From positions 1-46,478 of the IMG/VR virus record IMGVR_UViG_3300036768_000821: a DNA stretch of 46,478 bases; one strand, given 5' to 3'. The position numbers were made by a program, and so were the translations under genes. Positions 5,920-46,478 of the stretch are shown in pieces. The first letter of the stretch is position 1. The number at the start of each line of letters is the position of its first letter. The notes under the pieces are model-generated. The model worked only from the letters and a program-made list of their open reading frames with translations, made no database searches and was not told the origin of the DNA. Source of the DNA: a virus.

Positions 5920-6834
5920 ATGGCAGTCGAAACTGTAGACAACGCGGTTGGCAACGATGACAATGCCCTTATCGAGGGCGCGGAACAGGTAGATTTCTCT
6001 CAGCTTGCTGCTGACATAGACGCTGATGTTGGCGGTGAAGCTCCTCCCACTGCCAAGGCCGGACTTCAGCCCGCTCAGCAGCAACAGGGGCCGCAGCAGG
6101 CGAGCACTGCGGCCCCGCCCCAACCTTCTCCAGTTGTACAGCAGCCTCCGGCTGCACCACAGCCAGCTGCTACACTACAGCCAACGGCTGTACCACAGCC
6201 CACAGCCGTACCTGCTCCACCCGGGGGGGCTCCCGTACAAGGCCAAAGTCAATTTGGCGAGGAACAGATACGTCAACTGTGGGAAACAAGGCGTGGTGAG
6301 GTCAAACAGTTTATTGCCAGTAAGTATGGCCTTACAGACGAGCAGCGCGTGGCGTTCCTTTCCGAACCGGAGAAGGTGGTTCCTGAGCTTATAGCGAACC
6401 TTTTCCTAGATGTCTACGACGCTGTTTTTGCAAACATAACGGCGCAACTTCCGTATCTTATTAATCCTGTTCTTGAACAACGTCAGAGAGCATCTGAATT
6501 CGAGCGTAGGTTCTACGAAAAGTGGCCTATTCTCAAGTCCAAGCCGGAGTACGATGCCACTGTGCGCAGGTTAGCGAGTGGTTATCGCCAGCTCAATCCT
6601 AATTCGACTATGGAGCAGGCTATTCAGGAGATTGGTGCACAAGCCATAGTTGCTCTTGGGCTGCTACAGCAGCTCAGTCAGCAGGCACAGCCCCAGCCCC
6701 AAGCGCAGCCAGCTCCGAAGCCGCCGCAGTACCGACCAGCCCAGGGCGGACCGGCGGTTGGTGTTGGTAACCAGCGTAACTCTGAGAATATATTCGCAGA
6801 GCTAGCTGACTACTATCTCAAAAGGTTTGAGTGA
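5920..6834 (+). CDS. Scaffold-like protein with Pro/Gln-rich linker
   Basis: Of 304 residues, the N-terminus (1-45) is acidic. Residues ~46-110 are a Pro/Gln/Ala-rich low-complexity linker that contains APPGGA from repeat copy 3. Residues ~115-255 are helical, and a second Pro/Gln stretch precedes a conserved-looking acidic/aromatic C-terminus (ELADYYLKRFE). Position directly before the major capsid gene, acidity and helicity are typical of podoviral scaffolding proteins, which direct prohead assembly and then leave. No catalytic motif is visible. Confidence 0.75.
   Translation: MAVETVDNAVGNDDNALIEGAEQVDFSQLAADIDADVGGEAPPTAKAGLQPAQQQQGPQQASTAAPPQPSPVVQQPPAAPQPAATLQPTAVPQPTAVPAPPGGAPVQGQSQFGEEQIRQLWETRRGEVKQFIASKYGLTDEQRVAFLSEPEKVVPELIANLFLDVYDAVFANITAQLPYLINPVLEQRQRASEFERRFYEKWPILKSKPEYDATVRRLASGYRQLNPNSTMEQAIQEIGAQAIVALGLLQQLSQQAQPQPQAQPAPKPPQYRPAQGGPAVGVGNQRNSENIFAELADYYLKRFE
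6214..6232 (+). repeat. 19-bp dispersed repeat, copy 3
   Basis: A perfect copy, read as APPGGA inside the Pro/Gln-rich linker of the scaffold-like protein. Confidence 0.97.
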
Positions 6835-11445: not shown

Positions 11446-13834
11446 ATGGGTTTTTCGTTGTGCTCCACCCGGGGGGGCTCTTATTATAGTTCTATTCCCG
11501 TACCTGTTGTATTCTGCTGTATTCAAGAATCCGGCTAACTGCTCTACTCGACCGTGTACATATACAGTCACGTGTGCAGCCCAAACATGTACCTCAGCTG
11601 AGAACACAGATCTCCAGGGGGTCTTTAACGAAGCCAACCTGGGTGATACAATAAAGCTCGAAGCCGGTCGCATTTGGACCGGACAGTTCAATATCAACCA
11701 GAGGCCTGGTTCAGGGTGGCTATTGATTACTTCTACCCTTGACAACCGATTACCTCCGCCGGACGCACGAGTGACTGGTCATTACCGGGGCGTTATGCCT
11801 ACGATACGAAACAGCTCCGGCGGGGCAATGGCAATTCAGCTTGTGAATGGCGGAACTCCGGCCCGCTTTATCAAGTTTGTGGGTGTTCGATTCATAGCCC
11901 AAACCGGGGCGGCAGGTCTCGTTCGTATCGGAGGAAACCCCATAACTTCACCATCGGCTGATGTCGAGGACGTAGTATTCGACAGATGTATCGTCGAAAA
12001 CCCTGGCTGGCTTACCAACATAGGATTCCTCCTTGGATCTAGGGGGGATAGGGTTGATGTTATAAACTCCTACCTCCAAGGGGCAATGAAATACAACGGC
12101 GAGGTTCAGGCGATCACATTCCTTTGGGGGAACCATCGTATCTTGAACAACTACATCGCTGATGTAACCGGCGAGAATGTTATGTTCGGGGGTACTGCTC
12201 CGTCGTTAGCGACCCCGAAGAACAAGGCGACAAACAGTGGTGAGTTCGCTTATAATAGTGTTGTAAATCACGAAAGGCGTCTGAGATTCCGCGCTTGGAT
12301 ACCCAATGAGTGGTATTTCAAGAACGCGGTTGTCAGGAACGCTGGCACCGACTACATTACAAGCTCGACCTGCTTTGATGGAGCTACATTCGGATCGGGC
12401 TGCACGTGGACTTCGACGACCTCTGACCAAGTTGTCAAAAACAATTTTGAATGCAAAAACTGCGCCGATCTGATGGTCCACCATAATACCTTCGATGGTA
12501 TGTGGGTATCGGCTCAATATGAGTCGGTAGTCTTTAAAGTTGCCAACTGCCCGAAGGATTCGGGCACTGGCTGCCAATGTCCTCCAGGGTTTTCAGGAAA
12601 TGTGAACGTGAATGGCTTAGATGTAACAAGCGCAGACGGGAATCCGCTTCCATTCATGTTTCAGTCTGCCACATCGGCTATTACCATCAACGGGGTAGCC
12701 ATGACGATTGCTGACTTTGACCTTACCAACCAGAACCATCTTCTTTTAGCCAGTTCAGGTGGAACATTAACCAACGTTCCATACAGTTGGGGTAATGCCA
12801 ACTGTATAGGGGCGTATATGCAAAATCTCACCTTTGAGAACAATATTGTTGTGCGTTCTCCACAGGCCTGGCAGATTGTCCAGCTAAACGAGTCTGAACG
12901 CCAGAAGGTCGGGAACATCCTTGCTCGTAACAATCTCTTCTATGAGGTTGATTGTGATCGGTGGCGGCGTGTGGATGCTTCGTGCGGAAATGCGAAGTTT
13001 GGTGCCGTCAGAATAACCGGGATGCCTCCGGGAGTAATTTTCAAGAACAATACTGTATTTTTTAATCGGTCCCCTCATCAAGCCGGTGTGGACGTTAGTG
13101 GCACCTTCAGCTGTGTTGGTATTCCGACGGGCCAAGGAAGCTGCACAACCGGTTCAGCGGCCCAGGGCGACACACGCTTTCTAAACAACATCGTCAGCAA
13201 AGGCAGTACCTATATGGTGTTCGGCGAGTCGCCACCGGCAAACGACACCTCTTCTCTCAGCACCAAGTTCTGCCAGGGAGGATGTAACGCTGCCTCTTTC
13301 AACGGCAATATCCTTACTGGGGTTGCGTTGAGTGGTTGGCCAACGACGACTTACAACCTTTGCTCGTCGAGCGCTAGTTGTACACCTGATTATACCTTTG
13401 TAGATCCAACGAGGGGTAAGCTTTTTGAAGATTACAATGGTGGGTTCTGGAAGGTCGCTAGCGGATGGAACAGGGCCGGGGCCTACGCTGAGCACCCTGG
13501 GGCGAGATGGGATTCTCTCCCCTCGATTCTCCACCCAGATACGAACGCGATTGGGCCTAAAGTTACTGCGACATCCAATTCCTTCACTCTAACCTACAAT
13601 CTCACAGCTCCTCAACGCTATATCAGATGTAGTGTGGAGGCAGCGACGTCCCCAGATCTCGACTCGGGGCTGGTCAACAGCCTCGATGCGGCTCAGTTCC
13701 TTCAGCCGGGGCACGACACACCTGGTGGGCTGGCTAGGTCTATCACTGTTACTGGGCTAACCAGCGGAACAACCTACTACTTCAGACTCCATTGTGGAGG
13801 AGGTTTCTATGAGGGCAGCGTTACTACTCCTTAG
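11420..13834 (+). CDS. Tailspike-like right-handed beta-helix protein (804 aa)
   Basis: The start has a hydrophobic signal-like segment (residues ~18-35) that is preceded by, and partly built from, APPGGA encoded by repeat copy 4. A Cys-rich stretch follows (NCSTRPCTYTVTC). Residues ~60-650 show parallel beta-helix periodicity typical of pectate-lyase-like tailspikes (DVVFDRCIVEN, RVDVINSYLQG, HRILNNYIADV, LMVHHNTFDG). The C-terminus is a fibronectin type III-like domain (ITVTGLTSGTTYYFRL). Likely a receptor-binding or polysaccharide-degrading spike; the catalytic residues cannot be fixed by eye. Confidence 0.78.
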   Translation: MIFLQGFRRWVFRCAPPGGALIIVLFPYLLYSAVFKNPANCSTRPCTYTVTCAAQTCTSAENTDLQGVFNEANLGDTIKLEAGRIWTGQFNINQRPGSGWLLITSTLDNRLPPPDARVTGHYRGVMPTIRNSSGGAMAIQLVNGGTPARFIKFVGVRFIAQTGAAGLVRIGGNPITSPSADVEDVVFDRCIVENPGWLTNIGFLLGSRGDRVDVINSYLQGAMKYNGEVQAITFLWGNHRILNNYIADVTGENVMFGGTAPSLATPKNKATNSGEFAYNSVVNHERRLRFRAWIPNEWYFKNAVVRNAGTDYITSSTCFDGATFGSGCTWTSTTSDQVVKNNFECKNCADLMVHHNTFDGMWVSAQYESVVFKVANCPKDSGTGCQCPPGFSGNVNVNGLDVTSADGNPLPFMFQSATSAITINGVAMTIADFDLTNQNHLLLASSGGTLTNVPYSWGNANCIGAYMQNLTFENNIVVRSPQAWQIVQLNESERQKVGNILARNNLFYEVDCDRWRRVDASCGNAKFGAVRITGMPPGVIFKNNTVFFNRSPHQAGVDVSGTFSCVGIPTGQGSCTTGSAAQGDTRFLNNIVSKGSTYMVFGESPPANDTSSLSTKFCQGGCNAASFNGNILTGVALSGWPTTTYNLCSSSASCTPDYTFVDPTRGKLFEDYNGGFWKVASGWNRAGAYAEHPGARWDSLPSILHPDTNAIGPKVTATSNSFTLTYNLTAPQRYIRCSVEAATSPDLDSGLVNSLDAAQFLQPGHDTPGGLARSITVTGLTSGTTYYFRLHCGGGFYEGSVTTP
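11462..11480 (+). repeat. 19-bp dispersed repeat, copy 4
   Basis: A perfect copy, read as APPGGA(L) between the basic N-terminus and the hydrophobic core of the tailspike's signal-like segment. Confidence 0.97.
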
Positions 13835-19970: not shown

Positions 19971-20434
19971 TCTGCAGAATGGCACAGGACGAAGTGGACA
20001 AGTTTTGGTCCAAAGTGTGCAATTTTATTGCCATGTCGTTGCAGCGGTCTTTGGGCGAGATGACACCACTTGGTGTTAGAAATGCATTGAAAGACGGCAG
20101 CATGCAGATGTGGCTTGTAGCCGACATGGGCGGTGCGGATGATCCAGTTAAGTTCGTTGCTGGATGCGTCACGCAGATTGTGGAATATGAGTCCTTCAGG
20201 TCGCTTCGCATAGCTATGATAGGCGGAGCGGGACTTGATGAGTGGAAAGACAAACTTATGTCGGCAGTAGATCATTTTGCTCGTAGTGAAGGCTGTAAAT
20301 ACATAGAGGCCGTCGGCAGAAGAGGGCTTGAGAAGAAGATATCTCCACTTGGGTTCAAGCCGGAGTATACTGTGTACATAAAGGAGGTTCCTGGTTATGG
20401 GCAAAACGGCAGGGGAAACAAGGCAAGTCAGTAG
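19955..20434 (+). CDS. GNAT-like virion protein (159 aa)
   Basis: The C-terminal half has the fold pattern of GNAT acetyltransferases (HFARSEGCKYIEAVGRRGLEKKISPLGFKPEYTVYIKEV, spread over ~105-150): a helix, a strand with an E-A-V-G-R-R-G turn, and a closing strand. Similar proteins occur next to the internal core genes of T7-like phages. There is no clear acetyl-CoA loop, so activity is doubtful. It may be a structural core component. Confidence 0.65.
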   Translation: MDKVVVCRMAQDEVDKFWSKVCNFIAMSLQRSLGEMTPLGVRNALKDGSMQMWLVADMGGADDPVKFVAGCVTQIVEYESFRSLRIAMIGGAGLDEWKDKLMSAVDHFARSEGCKYIEAVGRRGLEKKISPLGFKPEYTVYIKEVPGYGQNGRGNKASQ

Positions 20435-23924: not shown

Positions 23925-26900
23925 GTGAAATAACGGAGCTCCTCAAAAATTCGACTGGGACAGATAATGTCTCCCTTATAAAGAGGATTCTCAGCGCGGA
24001 AAAACCGCCAGAACAGCCGTCCGGCCCTAAGGCTCTGCTTGGGCAGATGATGACGTTCGGCCTCCAAGCAGCCGAAGGTGTAAAGACAGTAGCGAGGGGC
24101 GGACTCGGTACTCTCCAGATGCTGGGAATAGACACATCTGGGGCACTCAAAGCTATAGATGAGAACATACCTAGTCTGCCAGTACCTACAGTCGAGGAGC
24201 TCTTCAAAAACCCAAGTGTATCCAAAGTAACAAATGGTATACTCAGTTGGGTAAGCCAGCAACTGCCTGTTCTCGGATCTAACTTTGCAGCTTCGGCAGC
24301 CGGAGCAGCAGCTGGAGGTGCAGTCGGTGGGCTGCCAGGTGCTATAACAGGTGCAGCCATAGGTAACCTGATTGCTAGCTACATGTTCAACGCGGGCAAC
24401 TTGTACCTCGATCTAAAAGAAAAAGGAGCCGACGACAAGTTTGCTGCTAGCTTAGCCGGTATACCGATGGCTCTCTTAGATGCAATAACACCATATAAGA
24501 TAGGTTCCAGGCTACTCTTTCTTCCGAAGAGAATGCTCAAAGCCGGAGAGATAATAGCCACTGAGGCTATACCGGAAGCACTACAGGCGGTCGTTGAGGA
24601 AAGCACGAAGTACTACAAAGGTGTCAGCGATGGATGGGATGCTGCGCTAAGCAATATACTCAACTCGTTTACTATGGGTGCAGTGGTAGGCGGGGCAGCG
24701 GAGGTGGCCACAAGGGTTGCTGAAGCTGCAAAGCAAAGGGTGCCTGCACCACAAACAGAAACAGGGACAAAGACAAAGACAGAAACAGGAACTGTAGGCA
24801 CTGCGGGGACTACGGAAACCACAGGAACTACAGAGACTACAGGGACTACAGGAACCACAGAAACTACAGAGACCACCACTACACCTACACCTGGAGAGCC
24901 CCCCCGGGTGGAGCCACCACCGACTCCATCAATTCCATCCACCGCTGAGCCATCACGCATTCCATCAATTCCATCTTTCACCGAAATAAAAGCCTCGTTT
25001 CAGGAGGAGATATCTTCAGAGAAATTCGACAGCGTAATCAGGACGGCCACGGAACAGCAAGTCGACCTGGGCGAATTGGTCGAAGAGGCCAAGAACATAA
25101 CGTCATACGACGAAGCTGTAGGATTCGGCAACAAAGTATTCGATCTTGGTCACGACGCTGTTGTGCATATATACAAGCAGATCCCTGATATCCCTGCTAC
25201 AGCTGGCGAAAATCCGGTTAAGGTCATTCTATCCCGTATTATACGATATAAAGTCGGGTCTGCGGACACACTCCCCAGTGTGCCGCAGATAAGTGACAGC
25301 CAGATACCAGCACTGCGACATTTCGCTGCCTCTACAGACCCAATAGACAGAGTGGGTGCACTCGCTAAATTGGCTTACAAAGGATTAGCGTCGTGGCTCG
25401 ACGTCGCAAAAGCCCGCAGGGCGATGATAGAGGATTGGAGGAGTAACGGGTTTAGTAATGATAATTTTGTAATTTCAAGGATATTAGGCGCAGAGTCGCT
25501 TGTAAACACACTGAGGGCAGCCTCTCCGCAGGGTATACCATCAGTTGATATATCCACGTTCGACTTGCTGGCTGACTACGATTCGAGGTTTGCTAAGATA
25601 GTAGATGCCAGCAAGCTAGACGAAACAGAGGGTGGATACGTATCGAAGGCCCATCCAAGGGCTGGCGTCGATTTGAGAAGCCCGGAGAACAGAAGGCTCT
25701 TTATACAAAGAGCCGCGGAGATCCTTGGCAAGCAAGTCAGTGAAATCACGGATAGTGATATACTAGATGCTGCTGCTCGGCTCGGCTTCGAAGCCGTCGT
25801 CGACAACGGATATCTGCGGCTGACATCTGCTGCACCCAGAGGGCTTATATACTACATAAAACCGGAAACTCTATTTGCAGGGCTCCCTGGTAAGGACCCT
25901 CCTAAGGTAGCTGCATGGACTAAAGCCCTTGGCAACAAGTTGATGGTGTACGCGCCCTTCGATTACGACAAGGCCAAGGCATTCTACGAGCGTCACAAGA
26001 AAGTCATAGACGACTTTAGAGATCTCATAGAGGATATAGCCGCCGATATAATGGTTAAGATATCTGGCATGACTGTACAAGGACTGCCAGGTGATAAAGT
26101 CCCAGAATTGTGGAAAATAGTACGCAGGGTTGTGCCAATGGTGTCTGATACTGCGTACGGCCTCTTCGTACCCATAAGATCGGATCGTAAAAGGGCTCTC
26201 ATAGGTGTATCTATAATCGACCTCAACGAGCCCCACGATCCGGAAAGGACTGTTGGTACAATAGTACACGAGCTCTCACATACTATAGCATCCCACAATG
26301 TTGGGCCTGGTGAACAGGATGACTTCGATATATACTTGGCTAAAATGCATGCCCTAGCCGATCAGCTAGGGCTGATCAAGAAGCACGCTTACAATATTAG
26401 AAAGTTCGTTGCTGGATACTCCAACGAACTGAAACGAATCAGACGGGAGGCAGAACGTGAATTCTTCGTCGACAGCGAAGACACTCGAACGGGTTTGGGC
26501 GCTATCCGACATATTCTCGGCATTACCGGAGGACTATCTACTGGTAGTGAAGGACATAACGTTGAAGGACGACCGACTATCGGAGCAGGTGAAAGCGAGG
26601 ATCGTACTGGCTATACAGACGGTACTAGAGAAACGGGGGTACAAGGGGCACCCAATTCCTGGGGAAAAGACGCCCCAAGAGTACCGCCAGATCCTGGGCC
26701 TGCCTACAGAGGAGATTGGCCAGAGGCCTCAGGACACTACCTCAACATCGCACAACCAGCGCTAGCTGAGGACAGATTCGGCCACTATGCAGTGGAGGAT
26801 GTGTCAGATCCGTATGCAGATCAACTATCTGATATGGTAGTCCAAGCGTCGACGATTGGCAAGCAAGTCCAGCAAACCATCTTTGAAGATGTATCCACGT

Positions 26901-29545
26901 TCAACAGATTCATAGGATATGTCACAGGTATAAAGCAGCTAGCCATATTGAATCCCAACATGGCCTCCTTGGTGCACTACACCAATAAGGTTGTTGCAGA
27001 CTTCATGCTCACAAAGATAGAGGTCCTAAAGGAGGCCGACGGGATCTTGCGAGATTGGGCCAAGATTGGCCCGAAGGCCGATGCGAAGCTCTCTGAGTTC
27101 ATCTACAAGGTGATGGACAAATCCTTCGAGAGCAAAACCAGGCTCTCTCCGTATGAGGTCCAGCTTATGGCTATTGATGCCGGCCTCTCTTCTGATCTAT
27201 TCGAACTGTACCGTAGGATAGACTCTTTCTTCGTAAAGGCCCTTGACTCTATGGAGGCTGCGGCCAAAGACGAAATAGAGAGGGTTCTCGGGGCTGGATC
27301 TCCTGGTGCTATAGCTGCAATCGAACAGCTCAAGAAAGACATGGACCTCCTCCGTAACAGGAACTTCTACCCGTCTTACAGGTTCGGAAGATGGGCTGTT
27401 GTGGCTAAGGCAAATCAGAGCATAACACTGGACGGCAGGTCATATGGCAAAGGGCAAACCATATACTTCTCTGGCAATGAGTCCAAGTCGCAGCAGGATG
27501 AAGACTACAAGCGGATGCTGAAGTACTTCAAAGATGCTGGTGTTTCTGATAGTGTTATAGTATACAAGGATTGGATACCGAAAGAGGTTGAGCCATTTCT
27601 AAACTTCTCCCCTGTGCTGTTTGACATGCTTGTGCAGCATCTCAACCTCGACCCTCAGCAGATTAAAAAGGCCAGGGAGTATATGTACAAGCTTGCCCCT
27701 GGACAGGGGTGGGTGAAGCATATGATAGCCAAGCGGAATATAAAGGGATACTCCCTGGACGCTCGGAGGGCCTTTGCGAGCTATGCCCAAAGCTATGCAA
27801 ACCACCTCGCACGTATAAAGCACCGATGGCAGTTACAGGAGGCCATTAAGAACCTAGAATCCGAAGTCACGGCGAATAACGTAGATAGAACAAAGGGCAG
27901 ACAGCTTCTGGAAGTCGTGGAACGGCACTACATGGATATCATGAATCCAACCACAGACTTTCAGACACTTAAGGGCGCCATGTGGATCATGTACTTCGCC
28001 CTTGTGCCGAAGCAGGCACTCATGAACCTCACTGAGGTTCCAATGTTCTCGTACCCATACCTAGCAAAAAGATTTGGCTATAACTTTGGTGTCAAAGATG
28101 GGCCAGTCAAAATCGAGATGGCGCGGGCCTACAAAGATGCGATACCGAATAAGCGCATCGACATTGCTACACAGGAAATGATAGAGACCCTCACAAACGA
28201 GGGATTGTTGGACCAAAGCTTCGCCACTGAGGTCTCGGCTGCGGCCGATGGTGGACTTGCTGGGAAGTACTTCAGTAGAACCAGGATAGGATATGCTTGG
28301 CGGCAGGGAATTGAGTGGTCGACAAAGCTCTTCGCTATGGCGGAGAGATACAACCGTAGAGTCACTGCTATAGCAGCTTTTCGATTGGCTAAGAAACACG
28401 GCATGACAACAGATGAGGCCATAAATGAGGCCAGAAGGGCCGTGGTAGTCGCTATGGGCGACTACTCATTTGCGAACAGGCCAGAGCTCATGAGGGGCAA
28501 AAAGAGCATTTTGTTTGTATTCAAGATGTTCCAACAGAAAAGTCTGTTTTACACTTTCAACAACGAAGGTGGGCTAGGGTTCTACCTTATGACTATGGCT
28601 ATGGCCGGCGCCCTCGGTATACCACTGGCCCAGGAGGTTGTAGATCTACTGGATTTCATCTTCACGTCCCTCAGGGGAAAGAAGACGGATCTGCGGGCTT
28701 CTATCCAAGAAACATTCAACAGCATAATACAGGGTCTCGGTGATATAGTATTGAACGGCTTGTCCCGCACGTCGTTCGGTCTGACTGGACTAAATCTTCT
28801 GTTCGGGGCACCTGTGCCAGCAATAGACATGAGCGCCTCGCTTCAGATGGGCAAGATCATTAACATTGGGGAACTCCTAGCTGCTATACAAGGCACAGAA
28901 GATCCTGACAGAGCAATCCTCAACTTTGCATCGTCGCTCTTTGGTGTCGCAGCGTCTACTGGCACGAACATGGCCAGAGCTGCACTTATCGACAGCCCGT
29001 CGTCGTCTAAGTGGATACGTGTTATTCCGTCTCTGGGCATCCGCAACATATCGCGGTTTGTGGAGGCTGTTACTACAAGCAAGCTTACTAACGCAAAGGG
29101 CGAGACCCTCGTCAACTTCGACTTCAGAAACCCGGAGCACATTGCAGAGGTAATGGCAATGCTGATGGGGGCGCAGCCAACACGTCTCAACAGGCGGTAC
29201 GAAGCTCTAACGTCGGCACACGATTTTGTAAGGTACCACCTTGCAAGGCGGGAGAAGTTAATGGCAGAGTATGCCCTGGCAGTCTACAACAGGCATACAG
29301 ACCCGCAGGAACTGGAAGATGCTAAGAAAGAGATCAGGGAATACAATAATATGGTAAGGTCTGATAAAGACCTCGCTCCATTTGCTATAACCAGCAAGCA
29401 GCTGGCGGAGTCCCTCAACAGAAGGTATGCTGGTATGAAACTGAGGGAGGCCGGTCTTCCTACACAACGAAGCCTGGTCGACATACACATGCGATTCCTT
29501 AGGGCTTACGGCATCGCACCCACTCTTTCCCAGCCTCAACAATAA
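23921..29545 (+). CDS. Giant internal virion protein with zinc-metalloprotease motif (1874 aa)
   Basis: The largest gene, last of the late operon. Residues ~125-165 form a Gly/Ala-rich hydrophobic segment (membrane-inserting type). Residues ~280-355 are a Thr/Glu/Gly then Pro-rich linker containing repeat copy 5. A zinc-protease signature HELSHTIASH starts at residue 783. Long helical regions follow, and near 1550-1580 lies a second hydrophobic stretch (MTMAMAGALGIPL). Size, position and membrane segments suggest a T7 gp16-like ejection protein injected with the DNA. The protease could act in virion maturation or in the host. It overlaps the opposing gene by 47 bp. Confidence 0.8.
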   Translation: MSEITELLKNSTGTDNVSLIKRILSAEKPPEQPSGPKALLGQMMTFGLQAAEGVKTVARGGLGTLQMLGIDTSGALKAIDENIPSLPVPTVEELFKNPSVSKVTNGILSWVSQQLPVLGSNFAASAAGAAAGGAVGGLPGAITGAAIGNLIASYMFNAGNLYLDLKEKGADDKFAASLAGIPMALLDAITPYKIGSRLLFLPKRMLKAGEIIATEAIPEALQAVVEESTKYYKGVSDGWDAALSNILNSFTMGAVVGGAAEVATRVAEAAKQRVPAPQTETGTKTKTETGTVGTAGTTETTGTTETTGTTGTTETTETTTTPTPGEPPRVEPPPTPSIPSTAEPSRIPSIPSFTEIKASFQEEISSEKFDSVIRTATEQQVDLGELVEEAKNITSYDEAVGFGNKVFDLGHDAVVHIYKQIPDIPATAGENPVKVILSRIIRYKVGSADTLPSVPQISDSQIPALRHFAASTDPIDRVGALAKLAYKGLASWLDVAKARRAMIEDWRSNGFSNDNFVISRILGAESLVNTLRAASPQGIPSVDISTFDLLADYDSRFAKIVDASKLDETEGGYVSKAHPRAGVDLRSPENRRLFIQRAAEILGKQVSEITDSDILDAAARLGFEAVVDNGYLRLTSAAPRGLIYYIKPETLFAGLPGKDPPKVAAWTKALGNKLMVYAPFDYDKAKAFYERHKKVIDDFRDLIEDIAADIMVKISGMTVQGLPGDKVPELWKIVRRVVPMVSDTAYGLFVPIRSDRKRALIGVSIIDLNEPHDPERTVGTIVHELSHTIASHNVGPGEQDDFDIYLAKMHALADQLGLIKKHAYNIRKFVAGYSNELKRIRREAEREFFVDSEDTRTGLGAIRHILGITGGLSTGSEGHNVEGRPTIGAGESEDRTGYTDGTRETGVQGAPNSWGKDAPRVPPDPGPAYRGDWPEASGHYLNIAQPALAEDRFGHYAVEDVSDPYADQLSDMVVQASTIGKQVQQTIFEDVSTFNRFIGYVTGIKQLAILNPNMASLVHYTNKVVADFMLTKIEVLKEADGILRDWAKIGPKADAKLSEFIYKVMDKSFESKTRLSPYEVQLMAIDAGLSSDLFELYRRIDSFFVKALDSMEAAAKDEIERVLGAGSPGAIAAIEQLKKDMDLLRNRNFYPSYRFGRWAVVAKANQSITLDGRSYGKGQTIYFSGNESKSQQDEDYKRMLKYFKDAGVSDSVIVYKDWIPKEVEPFLNFSPVLFDMLVQHLNLDPQQIKKAREYMYKLAPGQGWVKHMIAKRNIKGYSLDARRAFASYAQSYANHLARIKHRWQLQEAIKNLESEVTANNVDRTKGRQLLEVVERHYMDIMNPTTDFQTLKGAMWIMYFALVPKQALMNLTEVPMFSYPYLAKRFGYNFGVKDGPVKIEMARAYKDAIPNKRIDIATQEMIETLTNEGLLDQSFATEVSAAADGGLAGKYFSRTRIGYAWRQGIEWSTKLFAMAERYNRRVTAIAAFRLAKKHGMTTDEAINEARRAVVVAMGDYSFANRPELMRGKKSILFVFKMFQQKSLFYTFNNEGGLGFYLMTMAMAGALGIPLAQEVVDLLDFIFTSLRGKKTDLRASIQETFNSIIQGLGDIVLNGLSRTSFGLTGLNLLFGAPVPAIDMSASLQMGKIINIGELLAAIQGTEDPDRAILNFASSLFGVAASTGTNMARAALIDSPSSSKWIRVIPSLGIRNISRFVEAVTTSKLTNAKGETLVNFDFRNPEHIAEVMAMLMGAQPTRLNRRYEALTSAHDFVRYHLARREKLMAEYALAVYNRHTDPQELEDAKKEIREYNNMVRSDKDLAPFAITSKQLAESLNRRYAGMKLREAGLPTQRSLVDIHMRFLRAYGIAPTLSQPQQ
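24896..24914 (-). repeat. 19-bp dispersed repeat, copy 5 (inverted)
   Basis: A perfect copy on the minus strand, read on the plus strand as EPPRVE within the low-complexity linker of the 1874-residue protein. Confidence 0.97.
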
Positions 29546-30689
29546 TCTCAACAGCTCCACATTGGATAAGGCCTTCTAGTATATCACTGAAGGCTTTATA
29601 GGAGCTGACTTTGTGCATAAACCTCCTCCACAGCTCCTGTCTGGTTACCTTCTTGGACCTCTCGACGAACTTTCCGACCTCTTCTAGAAGGGAGCCTTCT
29701 TCCGTCGTCTGCACGGTACGGATAGTAAGGCCTATGTCGGCCTCAAGGGCTGACAGTATCTTCTCTGCTCCCTCAAGATGTTTCATTTCTATAATGAGTG
29801 AATTGCTCTCGGCCGCGGACAACACCATTGCCAACTTATGAATCATTGTGAACTTCCGTCCGGCATAGCCGAGCTGTCCGTCCTCAGATAGGCTTGGCAC
29901 CACGTTTTCCCAATGGTGCTTGTACCATTGCTCTCCCCATCTGTAAGCCTCCTCCGTGACAGTAAACTTACCGCTCAGCATAGATATCTCCTCTAGGTCA
30001 TGTAGGAGACTATCTGACAGTTCCTCCATGTCACACGGCTTCTTTTCTCGGCTCGGGTAGGCCACCAGCCGCTTTTTCTGCGATGCGTACACCAATAGGC
30101 ACCGCGACATGAATCCTCCGCCGATCATTCTCTTGGGAAGATTGTCGCTGAGCCATGCCGGCGTTGTGGCTGCTATGATATTTATCCACGGGTTGACAGC
30201 TGATAATGTGCCTTGTGTTCTTGTCTCCCTCTTCCAGGAGCCCACTTTGCCATCCCAGAGGTCTGTTAACACAGTTATCATCTTTGTGTCCTGGAAATCC
30301 ACCAATGAGCCGAACTCACTTGAATAGAACGTGAGACAGCTCATTGGGTGGAATTCGCCATCTATAAGAACATCCTCTCTGGCCTCCGAGAGGCTCTTCA
30401 CGAGGGCTTGCCAAGTTAAACTATCCGGCCCGAAGTTTATACCTGGTACCTCTGCCAAGAATCCACGGCCGATATCGAGGGTGGTGGACTTCGTAACTAC
30501 GGCTGGCGGTGCCACGAATATGATGTAGAAGTTTGGGGTCCAATTGAAGTACAGCTCTTCTATCCACACCTTCCTCCGTAGTGCACCTGCGATTGTTCCA
30601 ACCCCCACCCAGAAGTGCATCGACTCTGGGGCCTCCGAAAAGGAAGTGTACAGAAGATACGACTTGAGCCAATTCTCCAGTTTCCTCAT
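29499..30689 (-). CDS. DUF3987-like phage helicase/ATPase
   Basis: This 396-residue protein has a P-loop-like segment near residues 58-69 (FVAPPAVVTKSTT), in which the usual Gly-rich loop is altered to PAVVTKST. It resembles the DUF3987 proteins found with phage DNA polymerases and thought to act as replicative helicases. Later segments (TTPAWLSDNLPKRMIGGGFMSR, LVYASQKKR) are typical of that family. It is the last gene of the leftward block. Its leader is opposite the small RNA at 30740-30843. The 3' end overlaps the convergent virion gene. Confidence 0.75.
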   Translation of the reverse strand: MRKLENWLKSYLLYTSFSEAPESMHFWVGVGTIAGALRRKVWIEELYFNWTPNFYIIFVAPPAVVTKSTTLDIGRGFLAEVPGINFGPDSLTWQALVKSLSEAREDVLIDGEFHPMSCLTFYSSEFGSLVDFQDTKMITVLTDLWDGKVGSWKRETRTQGTLSAVNPWINIIAATTPAWLSDNLPKRMIGGGFMSRCLLVYASQKKRLVAYPSREKKPCDMEELSDSLLHDLEEISMLSGKFTVTEEAYRWGEQWYKHHWENVVPSLSEDGQLGYAGRKFTMIHKLAMVLSAAESNSLIIEMKHLEGAEKILSALEADIGLTIRTVQTTEEGSLLEEVGKFVERSKKVTRQELWRRFMHKVSSYKAFSDILEGLIQCGAVEIIVEAGKEWVRCRKP

Positions 30690-30704
30690 TCTTGAAAATT
30701 CCTA

Positions 30705-30733
30705 TTGACATATGACTCAGCCTATGGTATCAT
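30705..30733 (+). promoter_or_regulatory. Promoter of plus-strand small RNA
   Basis: TTGACA at 30705-30710, 17-bp spacer, TATCAT at 30728-30733. It points against the surrounding leftward genes and lies in the leader of the helicase gene. The predicted start is at about 30740, the first base of repeat copy 6. Confidence 0.72.
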
Positions 30734-30739
30734 ATAATG

Positions 30740-30758
30740 GAGCCCCCCCGGGTGGAGC
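30740..30758 (-). repeat. 19-bp dispersed repeat, copy 6 (inverted)
   Basis: A perfect copy. It is the only non-coding one and would form the 5' end of the small RNA (GAGCCCCCCCGGGTGGAGC on the plus strand). Confidence 0.97.
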
Positions 30759-30798
30759 GACTGGCCTACAGGCTTCGGTCCTCTGGCTGGTTCCCCCC

Positions 30799-30843
30799 AA
30801 GCCGGGTTGAGCCGGAAGGTTCGACCCGGCTTTCTCATTTTTG
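30799..30843 (+). terminator. Intrinsic terminator of the small RNA
   Basis: A 15-bp stem (AAGCCGGGTTGAGCC against GGTTCGACCCGGCTT, two G-U pairs) with a GGAA (GNRA) tetraloop, followed by TCTCATTTTTG. On the opposite strand there is no T-run, so it acts mainly in the plus direction. Confidence 0.85.
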
Positions 30844-30860
30844 TCTCCATTTTCCAGTCC

Positions 30861-33206
30861 TCACAATGTCTCCATTTTACCCCACCGCTTGCCAACCTTC
30901 AACTCGGATGGGATAGTCAGTGGGTTGGGATACGGAACCACCACCTTCGAGGCCTCTTTGATCTTCTCCACGGCAGACTCCAAGTCCTCTTCTCTCACCT
31001 GCATGAGCAACTCGTCATGCACCTGAAGGAGCACATTCACCTCCGGCGCTGTCTCTACCAGCCTACGCCAGACCCGATTGATCACGCAGGCCACTGTGGA
31101 CTGCGGAATCCACGCCAGGGCCTCTGGGAGTAGCCCATCGACCCTGTCGAAGAATATTATCCGATACCCAAACATGTTAGACACAGAGTGCGTGTTGAGC
31201 AGTTGTTCCTCTACCCTCTTGTGCCAACGGCGGATACCAGGATATTTCTTAAACCACGCATCCTGCGCGGCACGGGCTTCCTTCTCTGTAATCTTCTGGG
31301 TTCTTGCCATTGTGCGGTAGCTGCCGCCGTAGTTTGTGCCGTGGATGAACGACTTGGCTTTCTTGTAGGGCATCCCAATGACACCAGCCGCGGCCTTGTA
31401 TATGTTCACCCCGTTGGCAAGCATCTCCGCCAGCTCTTCCTCCCCGCTTTCCCAAACGACCACGTGGAGGTCTGCCTTTACCAGGTCCATAGACACCAGA
31501 ACGTGGCCCTCGTCGGCCACAAACATGTCCCTTATGTTAGGGAGTGACCTGTGGAACTCATCCTCGTCCGGCTCCCACTTCGGTATGTTCTGCCCATTTG
31601 TTCCCCAGCCGAGTGGATTGGCCGAGCTGGAGAATCTGAACGTCTTTGTACCTGCCGGATTCAGGCCACAATAGAACCTGTTGTCCGGTCCATTCTTCTC
31701 TATAAACGTACTGAGAAGCACCCGCATCGTACGGGCCTCTTGTATGAGCCTTATTGGTCTTTCCAATAGTGGCTCGTGCACGGCCAGCGCATCTAGCGCG
31801 TCGTCATTGAGTGTCGGGCGTCCGGTCTTTCTGTGCTTCTGTATTGGTATGTTCAAGACACTGTGCCGCCCATCTATAACCCTCCGAAGATCCTCGTAGA
31901 AGAGCTTCCGCAGTTGGTGGCTGTTGTGAGGATTTACTGGCTCTCCTACGATGTACTCCAGCCTCCTCGTTCTCTGCTCCAACCCCTCCTCTAGCTTTGA
32001 CTTTATGTCGGTCCTCAGGCTGCCATCCAATCTCACGCCTGTCAGCATAGACCGGAGTGTTGGAGTGAACAGCGACATTTGGAACTCGAATTGCTCCGAG
32101 AGCCCTACCTCCTTGAGGGCTCTCTCCTGCACTTCGTGTATTTCGTATGTATATATGCAGTCCTTAGCATTGTACTCCCACAGCGATAGGTCGCGCAGAG
32201 ACCTTGGCCCCCAATCCTTGACATCATCCTTCCAATAACAGTAATAGTCGCAGTATATACTGGCCAAGTAGTCTAGGCTCTTCTCCTTCCCTGGGAACAG
32301 AACGTTCTGCGCTATCATTGTATCGAACCTCGGCTCTATGATGTGTCCCCACCATAGGGCCATCATGAAGAGATCGTAGAGGAGGTTCTGACCCACTACG
32401 TCGCAGGACCGAAGGGTTTCGACTATACTGTTTACAATAGCCGCCTCCTGGTCCAAGGTCCATTCACCCAGTGGGATCACTATGGCCTCGCTCTTGGACC
32501 ATGAGAGCCCCACGCACACTATTGTTTGCGCTGAGGTCTCTATGTCGAGGACTAATCTCCTCCGTGCTCCACCCGGGGGGGCTCTCCGGATGTTTTCGAG
32601 CGTGTCCATTATGGCTTCGAAGGATGGATCTATGTAGAATGTACAGCTCGGAGGTATGAATGGCCTTTTGTGCACTCTTTTTAGATCATGTACAGTATCG
32701 GCTCTCCTTGACCATTCTCTCAAGATAGCCGACGGATGTATAACCGGCAGCACGTTGTAGGTGTTGCCAACTATATCCCACCTGAGCATAGATCCCCTCC
32801 ATTTAGTAATGGACTCCAGCCCCGTCAGAGCCCACAACGCCGTCTCGCCGCAGCACACTATAACATCAGGATTCAGTGCTTGCACCTCGGCCAGCAGATC
32901 GTCTATGTGCCTTCTAACCGAGCCGAGAACCCACGCCCCATTGTATTGTACCCAGTCAGGGCCTGGCTGTTTCTTCCTCCTGTCCAGGAACATGGATATC
33001 TCATTTCCGTCAGGCCTGAATCTGAACACGTTTGTAAAGTAGCAATCCGTCGACAAGATCCCAGCCTCGTTGAGCATTCTTCGCAGCTCATTTCCGGCTG
33101 GTCCTACGAACGGCCGCCCAGCGTACTCCTCCTTTTCGCCAGGGGCTTCGCCGACAACCATTATCTTAGCGTCTGTTGGCCCGTGTCCTGGAACATATCT
33201 CGGCAT
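30861..33206 (-). CDS. Uracil-DNA glycosylase / family A DNA polymerase fusion
   Basis: The replicative polymerase, 781 aa. Residues 1-~195 match family 4/5 uracil-DNA glycosylases (GEAPGE at 19-24, HPS at 157-159) but lack the N-terminal CxxC of the usual Fe-S site. APPGGA (209-214), from repeat copy 7, links to a 3'-5' exonuclease (DIE at 221-223; N274, D278; Y345/D349). The polymerase motifs are altered: motif A D574-LVKAD-LH has Asp579 for the steric-gate Glu; motif B has Tyr614 for Arg and His622 for Phe but keeps K618 and Y626; motif C is HDE (730-732). Its start overlaps the methyltransferase gene by 46 bp. Confidence 0.9.
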   Translation of the reverse strand: MPRYVPGHGPTDAKIMVVGEAPGEKEEYAGRPFVGPAGNELRRMLNEAGILSTDCYFTNVFRFRPDGNEISMFLDRRKKQPGPDWVQYNGAWVLGSVRRHIDDLLAEVQALNPDVIVCCGETALWALTGLESITKWRGSMLRWDIVGNTYNVLPVIHPSAILREWSRRADTVHDLKRVHKRPFIPPSCTFYIDPSFEAIMDTLENIRRAPPGGARRRLVLDIETSAQTIVCVGLSWSKSEAIVIPLGEWTLDQEAAIVNSIVETLRSCDVVGQNLLYDLFMMALWWGHIIEPRFDTMIAQNVLFPGKEKSLDYLASIYCDYYCYWKDDVKDWGPRSLRDLSLWEYNAKDCIYTYEIHEVQERALKEVGLSEQFEFQMSLFTPTLRSMLTGVRLDGSLRTDIKSKLEEGLEQRTRRLEYIVGEPVNPHNSHQLRKLFYEDLRRVIDGRHSVLNIPIQKHRKTGRPTLNDDALDALAVHEPLLERPIRLIQEARTMRVLLSTFIEKNGPDNRFYCGLNPAGTKTFRFSSSANPLGWGTNGQNIPKWEPDEDEFHRSLPNIRDMFVADEGHVLVSMDLVKADLHVVVWESGEEELAEMLANGVNIYKAAAGVIGMPYKKAKSFIHGTNYGGSYRTMARTQKITEKEARAAQDAWFKKYPGIRRWHKRVEEQLLNTHSVSNMFGYRIIFFDRVDGLLPEALAWIPQSTVACVINRVWRRLVETAPEVNVLLQVHDELLMQVREEDLESAVEKIKEASKVVVPYPNPLTIPSELKVGKRWGKMETL
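32566..32584 (+). repeat. 19-bp dispersed repeat, copy 7
   Basis: A perfect copy. The leftward polymerase gene reads its complement as APPGGA, exactly at the linker between the glycosylase and exonuclease domains. Confidence 0.97.
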
Positions 33207-34447
33207 TTTGCAAGATTCTCCTGTGCAATGGTTACCATCCTCGGCTCTATGTCACATCCCATCACGTTCAAGCCGTACTTCAGCCCTTCCACAAGAAAAA
33301 CCCCTGTTCCACAGAATGGGTCAATGAGGGTTTCTCCGGGCCAAGCTACTGCCGATACCAACTTCTTTGCAAGCTCTGCGGGCTTCTCTGGACCTTCTTC
33401 CCTATCTAGTTGGCGGGCTACAATTACATCGTGCAATTCTTTCATGGTTCTATTTCCCTTCCTGGCTATTAGGATCGTGTCGTACGTTCTTCTTGGCCAG
33501 ATATCTGGCACTGGAGCTATTCCGTTCTCTTTGTACCATATCAACGGGACTGGCCACACGTCCCAGCCGATGCCATCGACTATTTTCCGCAGCTCTGCGA
33601 ACCTCCTAGGGCTACAGAATACAAGCAGGCGAGAGTTGTCTTTGCATACATCATAAAGAAGACCGATGGCTTCATGGAGCAGCGCAGACACGTCTGCCCA
33701 ACTGTCATTGTAGGTGTGTGGCGTAGATGAACCATAGAGGGCCTGTCTATCTACTTCGATTCCGTATGGCGGGTCTGTTATAACTACGTCAACCGACTTT
33801 TTGTTGAGCCCTGCCAGCCAAGCCCTGCAGTCCATACATTGCACAGACCAAGTTTCCCTCTTCCTCCTTACGATCTCCTGTGCTATGTCGTTCATAGACA
33901 GTTGGAACATTCTCTTGAGGGCTTCGCGTTCGTTCTTTGCCTTTGCTATCTCTGGATCGTCGAGGTGACTCGCTAGCAGGATTTTGTTGGATATCGTGTA
34001 TGGATTCAGCTCTACTCCTGACTGCTCGGCTAGCAACTTCCCTGTGTCTTCTATGGTCCAGTCGCTGTTCTGCATGGTTTTGAGCCTGTGGATAGCAGCT
34101 ATCGCCAAAGCTCGCTCTTTCCAAGTAAGGTCAAGCCTGTATATATTCTCGTACAGCTCAGCCTTAGCCGCTTCTTCGATACTCATCTCGTCGAACCAAG
34201 TGGCCGGTATTGTGCCGTAGTCGATTGGCTTGTTGCAGAACAATACCTTCTTACCGCGGCTGTGAAGGTTAGATACAGCAGTGAGCCTTCTGAATCCAGC
34301 TACAAGGGTCGGTCCTTTCTTCCCCCTCCGTAGTACTATTGGGTGAAGAAGCCCGACCTCTTCGATAGACTTTTCTAGCTCTTCGATGTCTCCTACGGCT
34401 TGTCTTTGCCTCTCTTCGATTATAATCTCTTCAATACGTACCAGCAT
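33161..34447 (-). CDS. ParB-domain / DNA adenine methyltransferase fusion
   Basis: The 428-residue protein begins with a ParB/Srx-type domain: LLHPIVLRR, LVAGFRRLTA, then ENIYRLDLTWKERA, giving DNA contact and possibly nucleotide binding. From ~residue 200 a beta-class amino-methyltransferase follows (motif IV DPPY near 220, motif I FCGTG near 377). It would methylate adenine or cytosine amino groups, guided by the ParB part; the target is unknown. The ATG at 34447 follows AAGGAAA. It overlaps both neighbours, so the genes are probably coupled. Confidence 0.85.
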   Translation of the reverse strand: MLVRIEEIIIEERQRQAVGDIEELEKSIEEVGLLHPIVLRRGKKGPTLVAGFRRLTAVSNLHSRGKKVLFCNKPIDYGTIPATWFDEMSIEEAAKAELYENIYRLDLTWKERALAIAAIHRLKTMQNSDWTIEDTGKLLAEQSGVELNPYTISNKILLASHLDDPEIAKAKNEREALKRMFQLSMNDIAQEIVRRKRETWSVQCMDCRAWLAGLNKKSVDVVITDPPYGIEVDRQALYGSSTPHTYNDSWADVSALLHEAIGLLYDVCKDNSRLLVFCSPRRFAELRKIVDGIGWDVWPVPLIWYKENGIAPVPDIWPRRTYDTILIARKGNRTMKELHDVIVARQLDREEGPEKPAELAKKLVSAVAWPGETLIDPFCGTGVFLVEGLKYGLNVMGCDIEPRMVTIAQENLAKCRDMFQDTGQQTLR

Positions 34448-35168
34448 TTTCCTTTTTCCTGTTGTAGATCTCCAGGTGTCTCCTGTACAAAGTCCCAAAG
34501 TCCAACCTTCTTCTGAAGCTGGACAATCCCTCTACATGCTGCACCGCAATCTTGGGCGTGTACTTATTTACAAACCCTTTGCGGAATGCACGTTCTTGCC
34601 ATTCTTGATCCTCGAAGCCGTAACCTCCTGTAAAGTCTTCGTCTAAAAAACCCACTTTCTCAATTGCATGCCTCGGCAGAAGCACGCATATGAATGGGAA
34701 AGCCCTGGGGCCTATCCAGGGCTTTATCTTTCTCTCCGTGGCCGCTTTGTACTTTGCTATGCCGTTGAACATCATAGTGACTGGTTTTACCGATGCCGCT
34801 CCAATCACCACTGGAAAGACCCCGCAGTATAACTGGCGGTCACCGAGCTCGTACACCAGCTTGTCTACCCCGTTTTCGGTCACAAGCTTCACGTCGTCAT
34901 TGGACAACAGTATACACTTGGCTTTCCTGTCCAGCGCCCTCTTGATGCCTATGTTTGCATTCTTGGCGAAACTGAACTGTCCGCTAGCTCCATACACAAG
35001 TTCTATGTCCAGGTCTATCGTCTTGCATTTCTCTACAAACACATCAAACGGAGAATGTGAGTCCACTACGACTATGACCTGTGAATCCGGTTGGGTTTTC
35101 GTTAAGGAGTGTAGAAATACTTCGAGGTTCGACAGGTACCTACTTGGCACTACCACTATCGCAGACAT
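34431..35168 (-). CDS. Family 2-type glycosyltransferase
   Basis: A GT-A glycosyltransferase of 245 residues: N-terminal strand AIVVVPSRYLSNLEVFLHSL, a FSFAKNANIGIKRA segment, the metal/sugar site ILLSNDDVKL (~86-95), and a C-terminal GGYGFEDQEWQERA acceptor-side motif typical of the family. The sugar and target are unknown. Its location in the replication block suggests DNA-base or host-surface modification rather than virion decoration. A 10-bp inverted repeat (34699-34725) lies within it. Confidence 0.85.
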   Translation of the reverse strand: MSAIVVVPSRYLSNLEVFLHSLTKTQPDSQVIVVVDSHSPFDVFVEKCKTIDLDIELVYGASGQFSFAKNANIGIKRALDRKAKCILLSNDDVKLVTENGVDKLVYELGDRQLYCGVFPVVIGAASVKPVTMMFNGIAKYKAATERKIKPWIGPRAFPFICVLLPRHAIEKVGFLDEDFTGGYGFEDQEWQERAFRKGFVNKYTPKIAVQHVEGLSSFRRRLDFGTLYRRHLEIYNRKKENAGTY

Positions 35169-40805: not shown

Positions 40806-40898
40806 CCGCGATCGAGGTGCTGATGTAAGCCGCGTCCCAGTCTCCCGCGGTCGCGGCCCGCTGGCGGGATTCGAAGTTCTGGATTTGAAGTGTGATGG

Positions 40899-40971
40899 TG
40901 GGCCTTGCTGGATTCGAACCAGCGACCGACAGATTATGAGTCTGCTGCTCTGACCGCTGAGCTAAAGGCCC
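40899..40971 (-). tRNA. tRNA-Met (CAU anticodon)
   Basis: A complete cloverleaf of 73 nt: 7-bp acceptor stem GGGCCTT/AAGGCCC, D-arm GCTC...GAGC, anticodon stem GCAGA/TCTGT with loop CTCATAA (anticodon CAT), T-arm GCTGG-TTCGAAT-CCAGC and discriminator A. There is no CCA in the DNA. The first pair is G-C, so it is not the usual initiator form; elongator Met, or Ile after lysidine modification, are the choices. It lies 58 nt after the promoter at 41036-41064 and is probably the first element of that transcript. Confidence 0.95.
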
Positions 40972-41035: not shown

Positions 41036-41064
41036 ATTATAACATATGCTTCGTCAAAAGTCAA
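41036..41064 (-). promoter_or_regulatory. Leftward promoter P2 (upstream of tRNA)
   Basis: TTGACT (41059-41064 complement), 17-bp spacer, TATAAT (41036-41041 complement). Spacer and flanks are nearly identical to the promoter at 46041-46069. It lies at the end of the gene at 41061-41537 and drives the tRNA and the downstream replication block. Confidence 0.9.
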
Positions 41065-41537
41065 TAGATTTTTTCAAGAGCCCCCCCGGGTGGAGCGAGG
41101 TATTGGTCGTCTCCGCTGACCTCGAACATCAATCGGACAGCTTCATACGCCATTGTCCCCTCTGGCCAATCGAAGTACTCCACTTCAGGAAGGCGGACGC
41201 CATTCCACAATTTCATAGCCGCGTCCGCAGCTACATCGGGCGGCATGTCTTCTACCATAACGCCTTGTTCAGGTAGATGCACAGGCCAGTAGCATTCACA
41301 CTGGTAGATCTTGATATGCGGCTCGAATATGATCTTCTTGAACTGAAGTGCCCGTTCCAAGTCCTCGAATACAAGAAGGGCGCCAGTAGGTGGCGCCCAT
41401 ACAACACTGCCGATCCTGTATGTGACCGATAGATGACCGCCGACGAGTGAGGTTAGCTTGCCGTCGCTGTGGCGGCGGACAATCTTGTATCGTTTGTGGA
41501 TTGTTGGGGTGAAGATTAAATCCCAGATCCAATTCAC
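41061..41537 (-). CDS. Paralogous hypothetical protein C, C-terminus from the 19-bp repeat (158 aa)
   Basis: I use the GTG at 41537 (AAGAGG upstream, GTGA overlap with the previous stop) rather than the longer upstream starts. It shares with the next two genes a GK/G-L-x-S pattern, a V-x-G-LLVFED block and a W-P-E-G-T-x-A-x-x-x-x-L end, so it is the divergent member of three tandem paralogs. The C-terminus APPGGALEKIY is mostly encoded by repeat copy 8. Function unknown. Confidence 0.7.
   Translation of the reverse strand: MNWIWDLIFTPTIHKRYKIVRRHSDGKLTSLVGGHLSVTYRIGSVVWAPPTGALLVFEDLERALQFKKIIFEPHIKIYQCECYWPVHLPEQGVMVEDMPPDVAADAAMKLWNGVRLPEVEYFDWPEGTMAYEAVRLMFEVSGDDQYLAPPGGALEKIY
41078..41096 (-). 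repeat. 19-bp dispersed repeat, copy 8
   Basis: A perfect copy on the minus strand, in frame as APPGGA at the C-terminus of the gene at 41061-41537 and ~14 bp upstream of promoter P2. Confidence 0.97.
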
Positions 41538-41923
41538 GGCATTATCCTCTTGGAGTACAATCGCGAGCGGAGTCGGCATCGCTTGAAAGCAAGTGTACCA
41601 GCTGGCCACGGCTCCAGGTTCCAAGGGTCGAACTTCCTGAAGTCTTCATCCCATAGCTGCTTGACCTGATTGTCCGTGAGAAGGCAGATGTCTAAGCGGT
41701 ACTTTGGAAGTGAAATCGGGCCGTCAACTTCTGCAAGCCACACCTCCCACGGAAGTCTGCCAGCGAACTCGTGGGCTGTGTTCTCTTCGCCGTAGACCAA
41801 GATGCCGCCCACTGTGGCTTCCGTCCATTCTCCTGGGAAGTATTCCAGCGTTGTTGGTCCATCCACAATAGCGCTTACCAAGCGTCCTTTGACGTTCCGG
41901 ACTACTTTATACGCTGTGGTCAT
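41534..41923 (-). CDS. Paralogous hypothetical protein B (129 aa)
   Basis: The ATG at 41923 follows AAGGAGG; longer upstream starts are not supported. It aligns with the next gene over its whole length: TAYKVVRN, G-x-LxSA-x-x-x-GP, GGILVx, then MEVWLAEV and WPxGTLAFKRC. The proteins look like small beta-rich domains followed by a short helix. No known family. Confidence 0.78.
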   Translation of the reverse strand: MTTAYKVVRNVKGRLVSAIVDGPTTLEYFPGEWTEATVGGILVYGEENTAHEFAGRLPWEVWLAEVDGPISLPKYRLDICLLTDNQVKQLWDEDFRKFDPWNLEPWPAGTLAFKRCRLRSRLYSKRIMP

Positions 41924-43556: not shown

Positions 43557-43838
43557 TTACCTCCCTTCTAGCGCCCGGCGGAGAAGCTCGGCGTCCCAGC
43601 TCTTGTCCGAGGTGTAAAGGACGAGCTTTGTGCCTTTCACCTTCGAATGGATCTGGGACGCCTGACGGAAGTCCTCTTCCCGCCCGGCGTGCTTCAACAC
43701 TGCCTTGAATAGGTTGAACTTAGCTCGGAGCGATTCGGCGGCCTTGGTCGAGCCGCATTCCACTTCGAGCTTTCCATCTTGAGATACCCGCCTTATGGCC
43801 TCCCAATAGGCCATGTCAAAGTGTTCTAGGGATATCAT
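43557..43838 (-). CDS. Hypothetical protein (93 aa)
   Basis: The ATG at 43838 is 2 nt after the previous gene's stop; GGAGG lies 11 nt upstream. It is an alpha/beta protein with an amphipathic helix (AESLRAKFNLFKAVLKHAG) and a C-terminal helix (DAELLRRALEGR). The length and pattern resemble phage small DNA-associated proteins, but no family is recognised. Confidence 0.75.
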   Translation of the reverse strand: MISLEHFDMAYWEAIRRVSQDGKLEVECGSTKAAESLRAKFNLFKAVLKHAGREEDFRQASQIHSKVKGTKLVLYTSDKSWDAELLRRALEGR

Positions 43839-43839
43839 G

Positions 43840-43947
43840 TTACTTTTGCCTCCGATTCTGCTGAGAGCCCCCCCGGGTGGAGCGCCAATGGAGGGCGAAT
43901 ATGAAGAGGATGATGAGTAGGGCGGCCGCTGTGATGGCTTGTTTCAT
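43840..43947 (-). CDS. Small membrane protein (35 aa) with repeat-encoded C-terminus
   Basis: A short gene with ATG at 43947 and GGAGG 7 nt upstream. Residues ~4-19 form one transmembrane helix (AITAAALLIILFIFAL) followed by a basic tail. The tail is largely RSTRGGS encoded by copy 9 of the 19-bp repeat. The stop is 2 bp from the next gene's start. Role unknown; a host-membrane modulator of early infection is possible. Confidence 0.65.
   Translation of the reverse strand: MKQAITAAALLIILFIFALHWRSTRGGSQQNRRQK
43865..43883 (-). repeat. 19-bp dispersed repeat, copy 9
   Basis: A perfect copy on the minus strand, encoding RSTRGGS in the tail of the 35-residue membrane protein. Confidence 0.97.
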
Positions 43948-46040: not shown

Positions 46041-46069
46041 ATTGTACCATATGCTTGGTTAAAAGTCAA
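46041..46069 (-). promoter_or_regulatory. Leftward early promoter P1
   Basis: TTGACT (46064-46069 complement), 17-bp spacer, TACAAT (46041-46046 complement). Spacer and downstream bases closely match promoter P2 at 41036-41064. The leader contains a GGGGC-x-GCCCC hairpin before the first gene. Confidence 0.88.
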
Positions 46070-46275: not shown

Positions 46276-46387
46276 CCAAGGGGTGGTTGTCCCTTGGTGA
46301 TGTTCCAAGGGGGTGTGTTTTAAGGGGTTGTTACCCCTTGGTGTTTTCCCAAGGGGTGGTTATCCCTTGGTGCTTTTCCAAGGGGTG
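46276..46387. repeat. CCAAGGGG/CCCTTGG hairpin array
   Basis: Hairpins at 46276-46297 (CCAAGGG/CCCTTGG), 46322-46339 (AAGGGG/CCCCTT) and 46349-46370 (CCAAGGG/CCCTTGG), with extra half-sites at 46304 and 46379. Spacing is ~28-30 bp. The last part is shared with positions 1-55. A protein-binding or terminus structure is likely. Confidence 0.75.
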
Positions 46388-46478
46388 TGTTTTAGGTGTT
46401 TGTTTTTAAGCTATTTGTTTGTTTTAAGTTGTTTGTTTATTTCTTAAATTTTTTTTTTTTTTTTTTTTTTTTAAGAAT
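46341..46478. repeat. Right copy of terminal direct repeat
   Basis: It matches 1-132 with a longer T-run (24 T, 46449-46472). It may be a real terminal repeat or redundancy at a circular junction. Confidence 0.9.

Follow-up and report, generated by a model that had tools for sequence, protein, structure and literature searches.

The locus at 30705–30842 on the plus strand of this phage DNA is well supported as a self-contained RNA unit by membership of a phage promoter family, strand-specific folding and the polarity of its terminator. Computation identifies the promoter, the terminator, the strand on which they act and the 19-bp repeat with which the predicted RNA begins; we infer transcription, which we regard as likely. 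The unit lies in a window of 46,478 nucleotides, the whole stretch analysed, which is a viral record whose two ends share a repeat (1–126 = 46341–46466) and whose genes form two converging blocks. A sequence-only reading had described a self-contained small RNA whose repeat may connect it to gene control; the RNA unit stands as well supported, whereas the connection from repeat to gene control is possible. The same reading overstated the rarity of phage small RNAs with a full promoter-terminator unit, as a 2025 review catalogued many phage small RNAs (PMC12197685). Small RNAs of this sort are already known in other phages, and the 19-bp repeat is the odder object.

Promoter, terminator and predicted RNA

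The pairing of promoter and terminator is unique in the window. A scan of the whole window for promoters scoring 10/12 or better with a terminator 50–300 nt downstream recovered 30705–30842 (+) as the sole such locus. Under a first-order Markov null, any promoter-terminator unit arose in one of 40 runs and one as strong as this in none of the 40, which bears out the proposal of a small-RNA unit packed into ~140 bp.

The promoter belongs to a family used elsewhere in the phage. TTGACA-17-TATCAT with a TG extension before the -10 (30705–30733, +) was identified by consensus score and by a phage-family matrix, and it agrees with the consensus at 11 of 12 positions, confirming the promoter noted in the sequence-only reading. 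It is top of 15 in the 25–37 kb interval, and three other 11/12 sites occur in the whole window (1599+, 16706+ and 41064-). Two leftward promoters, one ahead of tRNA-Met 40896–40971 (41036–41064, -) and the other ahead of the leftward gene block (46041–46069, -), have TTGACTTTTRACSAAGCATATG.TAYAAT in common. A matrix made from these two only placed 30705(+) third in the window with a score of 22.2; the highest score reached in 20 random genomes was 16.8. Its recovery by a matrix of two other phage promoters therefore argues for membership of the family, and the likeness extends past the hexamers, since a spacer-only matrix ranks it 5 in the window. The fourth and weaker family promoter (1599–1627, +) also has spacer sequence in common beyond the sigma70 hexamers. 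Transcription is predicted to start at 30740 (+), 7 nt past the -10 hexamer, consistent with the suggestion that the RNA begins exactly with the repeat copy.

The intrinsic terminator (30799–30842, +) has a 15-bp stem, a GGAA loop and the tail TCTCATTTTT, with a T-tract for plus-strand transcription only. Its hairpin (30799–30832, +; 15 pairs) is the longest listed stem in 25–37 kb and also the longest terminator stem of the window. The GNRA-capped terminator with a T-run was thus correctly described, with the refinement that the T-run does not follow the stem immediately. Together with the folding computations, the promoter and terminator delimit a predicted small RNA of 103 nt (30740–30842, +). 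The plus strand of this region folds far beyond chance (z -4.85), the minus strand gives z -0.14, and the plus-strand signal comes mostly from the terminator. The internal hairpin noted earlier is indeed predicted (30739–30794, +; -29.2 kcal/mol), with the repeat as its 5' arm, but by itself it does not exceed chance (z -1.49; 15 of 200 shuffles).

The terminator could instead serve chiefly to halt readthrough from the plus-strand block that ends at 29545, shielding the polymerase gene, with the promoter weak or incidental. The two gene blocks converge tail to tail at 29499–29545, and the terminator polarity fits such a role; however, the terminator lies 1.2 kb past the block end, beyond the DUF3987 gene, and the promoter placed between block end and terminator belongs to the phage's own family. 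We consider a readthrough stop unlikely as the main function. Elsewhere in the window, a strong symmetric terminator-like hairpin, GGGGCGCCC..GGGCGCCCC TTTTTG (1442–1467, +), directly follows gene 959–1423.

Antisense position and the likeness to lambda OOP

The predicted RNA lies opposite the spacer between two replication genes. This spacer (30690–30860, -; 171 nt) is complementary to the RNA by position. Upstream of it is a family-A DNA polymerase with an N-terminal UDG-superfamily domain (30861–33206, -; E 9e-29 for the UDG match), and downstream is a DUF3987 gene of a phage primase family (29499–30689, -), assigned by profile matches (PF13148; best PHROG "DNA primase", E 2e-70). The RNA had been placed opposite a helicase leader; its antisense position to the spacer stands, whereas the gene belongs to the DUF3987/primase family and the spacer is intercistronic between polymerase and DUF3987. 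That the RNA is complementary to this leader and opposed to the flanking genes, as first noted, is certain from position for a polymerase-DUF3987 transcript. Next to the polymerase gene, 33161–34498 (-) encodes a ParB-N-like domain fused to a DNA N6/N4 methylase, and methylase genes are found near the polymerase in annotated relatives as well.

By analogy, we tentatively favour a self-contained antisense small RNA that acts in the manner of lambda OOP, its start overlapped by the repeat, which would serve as a DNA site. Host sigma70 polymerase would start at 30740 from the phage-type promoter and make a structured RNA of ~103 nt ending at the terminator near 30842. This RNA would be antisense over its full length to the spacer of the polymerase-DUF3987 mRNA, and it would most likely lower or uncouple DUF3987/polymerase expression through RNase III-type duplex cleavage or the collision of polymerases, in the way OOP acts in lambda. 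An effect on translation is not obvious, because the RNA overlaps neither a coding region nor the DUF3987 ribosome site. The repeat at the first base would be one of nine DNA sites for a putative factor controlling the small-RNA promoter. Both the antisense action and the repeat-binding factor are what we infer from this arrangement.

The likeness to OOP (pO-oop-tO) is one of layout, and sequence homology is not claimed. Both are short antisense RNAs in a replication-gene region, directed against the neighbouring operon, and the locus here has the OOP-type features of its own promoter, its own intrinsic terminator and antisense orientation to the neighbouring transcript. It lacks overlap with a target coding region: OOP covers the end of the cII coding sequence by 52 bases, whereas the RNA here lies wholly within the spacer 30690–30860. 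A LexA binding site has been reported within the oop-pO sequence (PMC5869508), and we liken it to the repeat at the start of the small RNA. Unlike lambda, this phage has no recognised lysogeny genes. P22 sar and P1/P7 C4 are likewise small phage RNAs that pair with phage mRNA, as is proposed here (PMC12197685); they control antirepressor synthesis, whereas an antirepressor gene was not recognised in this phage. If real, the unit would be an OOP-like antisense RNA in a large, little-studied phage group with two converging gene blocks, found here in freshwater and marine isolates plus many metagenomes, and it would offer a compact test of replication-gene tuning.

The 19-bp repeat and its possible roles

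The repeat GAGCCCCCCCGGGTGGAGC occurs in nine exact copies in the window, four on the plus and five on the minus strand, with no degenerate copy at 1–4 mismatches; hits at 5–6 mismatches, considered as decayed copies, look like chance. One copy forms the 5' end of the small RNA (30740–30758, +). Six others lie in sequence whose mRNA would be complementary to the RNA: at the terL start (2186–2204, -), in the portal C-terminal tail (5540–5558, -), in the low-complexity P/Q-rich part of a 304-aa gene before the capsid gene (6214–6232, -), 42 nt into an 804-aa gene (11462–11480, -), 14 bp upstream of promoter 41064(-) and complementary to the mRNA of gene 41061–41624 (41078–41096, +), and 27 nt upstream of gene 43557–43838 (43865–43883, +). 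The remaining two have the same sense as the RNA, in a 1874-aa gene (24896–24914, +) and in the polA linker (32566–32584, -).

Seven of the nine copies are in coding sequence, where they read as APPGGA in five, EPPRVE in one and a terL junction in one. The repeat is identical across frames and strands, and the constraint is therefore on nucleotides. The polA copy sits in a variable linker before the exonuclease domain, and this linker is 47 aa long against a mode of 46 in 56 relatives; its ordinary length suggests that the repeat was overwritten rather than inserted. The portal and 304-aa gene copies lie in non-conserved tails, and neither gene is obviously lengthened. Mobile insertion was rejected on the unchanged polA linker length, on the portal and 304-aa genes and on the flanks, where no target duplications were seen. 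A host-genome origin was also set aside, as the exact 19-mer occurs once each in seven GTDB stretches with no multi-copy genome. The first 15 bases occur once each in ten unrelated viral contigs, and the 19-mer as a repeat is absent from IMG/VR and GTDB. In the left non-coding end of the window, three tandem copies of GCTAGCAATTCGGTTGCCAC with 41–42 bp spacing (691–798) possibly mark a control or replication region.

A role as a DNA site is suggested by the identity of the repeat in several frames and strands, the unchanged polA linker, flanking purine pairs and promoter proximity. A purine pair precedes each of the eight other copies (p ~2e-5), and the small-RNA copy is preceded by TG. Of the four family promoters, two have a copy no more than 14 bp away (p 0.0015 under random placement, in a test chosen post hoc), and the two layouts differ, one downstream on the same strand and the other upstream on the opposite strand. 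The position of most copies inside coding sequence counts against this role. No repeat-binding protein or cognate repressor was recognised among the ORFs scanned, many of which match no family. An exact, drift-free 19-bp repeat across strands, frames and unrelated genes points to a sequence-specific factor or an RNA-based circuit.

Known dispersed phage sites resemble the repeat in part. Like the operators and stoperators of cluster A mycobacteriophages, it is a short asymmetric genome-wide site with some copies at promoters; stoperators, in contrast, occupy short intergenic gaps and are oriented along transcription, whereas the copies here are mostly genic, on both strands and free of sequence drift (PMC9283540). 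A stoperator identity was rejected on orientation, with two of the other eight copies in the opposed sense (p 0.14), and on the location of most copies inside genes. Phage tf, whose convergent genome is of about the same size, also has a short repeated motif in its single-strand interruption sites (PMC3517423). They differ in sequence and all lie on one strand (PMC3517423), and nick sites of the tf/T5 type were rejected by this one-strand rule, as the copies here are four plus and five minus.

The repeat might act through RNA, with the 5' 19 nt of the small RNA pairing perfectly with six repeat-bearing phage mRNAs (terL, portal, the 304-aa gene, the 804-aa gene, gene 41061–41624 and the leader of 43557–43838) and holding them down early in infection. 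Such pairing is energetically feasible: the computed gain at each of the six sites is between -20 and -31 kcal/mol, compared with a mean of -4.8 and a best of -15 in random phage windows. Four of the six sites belong to the plus-strand block that carries the structural genes, and three are near start codons. The idea that the repeat links the small RNA to gene control thus finds six of eight other copies complementary, but this excess is not significant (p 0.14), two copies have the useless sense and several sites are distant from any start. Moreover, pairing with the small RNA cannot explain the two purines that precede the other copies, and in the fold predicted for the RNA itself most of the repeat is base-paired (mean unpaired probability 0.28). 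Targets predicted at gene starts from duplex energy without constraints were long, implausible, composition-driven duplexes, and this prediction was set aside. Trans-regulation is accordingly possible but weaker than the cis-antisense reading, and both the pairing mechanism and this set of six targets appear improbable. In the bolder version, one early small RNA is a master antisense regulator, and the 19-mer, having replaced sequence that tolerates change in six transcription units, structural genes included, makes all six its targets at once; this is more doubtful still.

A decoy against a host system, such as a CRISPR-repeat mimic, appears very improbable. Racr anti-CRISPRs are likewise non-coding RNAs with a repeat placed straight behind the promoter (PMC10651486), which is the layout seen here. 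Unlike in Racr, the repeat is not solitary, as nine copies exist and many are in genes, and it has no multi-copy occurrence in GTDB genomes. Usual CRISPR repeats are longer than these 19 bp. The small RNA has no credible match to a known RNA family in Rfam, and therefore none to the CRISPR direct-repeat families described there.

Contrary to the first impression of no open frame, an incidental frame of 59 codons (30737–30916, +) spans the unit from ATG 30737 to TAG 30914–30916. That this open frame is a small leaderless protein gene is hardly credible, as its ATG precedes the predicted transcription start by 3 nt and is without a ribosome site, the terminator stem falls within it, it has no Pfam or PHROG family match, and its length is ordinary by chance.

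Distribution among related phages

The gene order around the unit is common, and the unit itself appears confined to this lineage. The nearest annotated phages, Microcystis phage Mel-JY34, Manatee Spring ctMlz233 and Vibrio phage VS-ABTNL-3, have the same order of polymerase then DUF3987 beside a convergent junction. The spacer between these genes is 171 nt in the window versus a median of 21 nt in 82 relatives, a difference that speaks for the small-RNA gene; longer spacers in relatives mostly contain small ORFs, and none has a comparable antisense promoter-terminator unit. No recognisable copy of the small RNA or repeat was found at the junction in the 82 relatives or in any IMG/VR contig, and patterns for the RNA core and terminator gave zero IMG/VR matches. 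Repeat and small RNA were likewise absent from L020–L099, G001, G002 and the three annotated phages named above, and from phage and plasmid records. The repeat is also missing from related loci that were identified by their capsid gene (57–61% identical). Because relatives at the junction and capsid-linked loci are without the unit or repeat, the unit is, on present data, apparently lineage-specific. The lack of conservation of the stems and repeat in any relative counts against the cis-antisense model.

The related phage G002 (loci L122–L124) carries a different dispersed motif, CTCAACCGAGCGC, in four copies (record positions 20403, 21961, 26324 and 27583). A second element in this phage, AATGCGTGGTT...AACCACGCATT, forms a hairpin and occurs three times (record positions 13992, 24650 and 28724).
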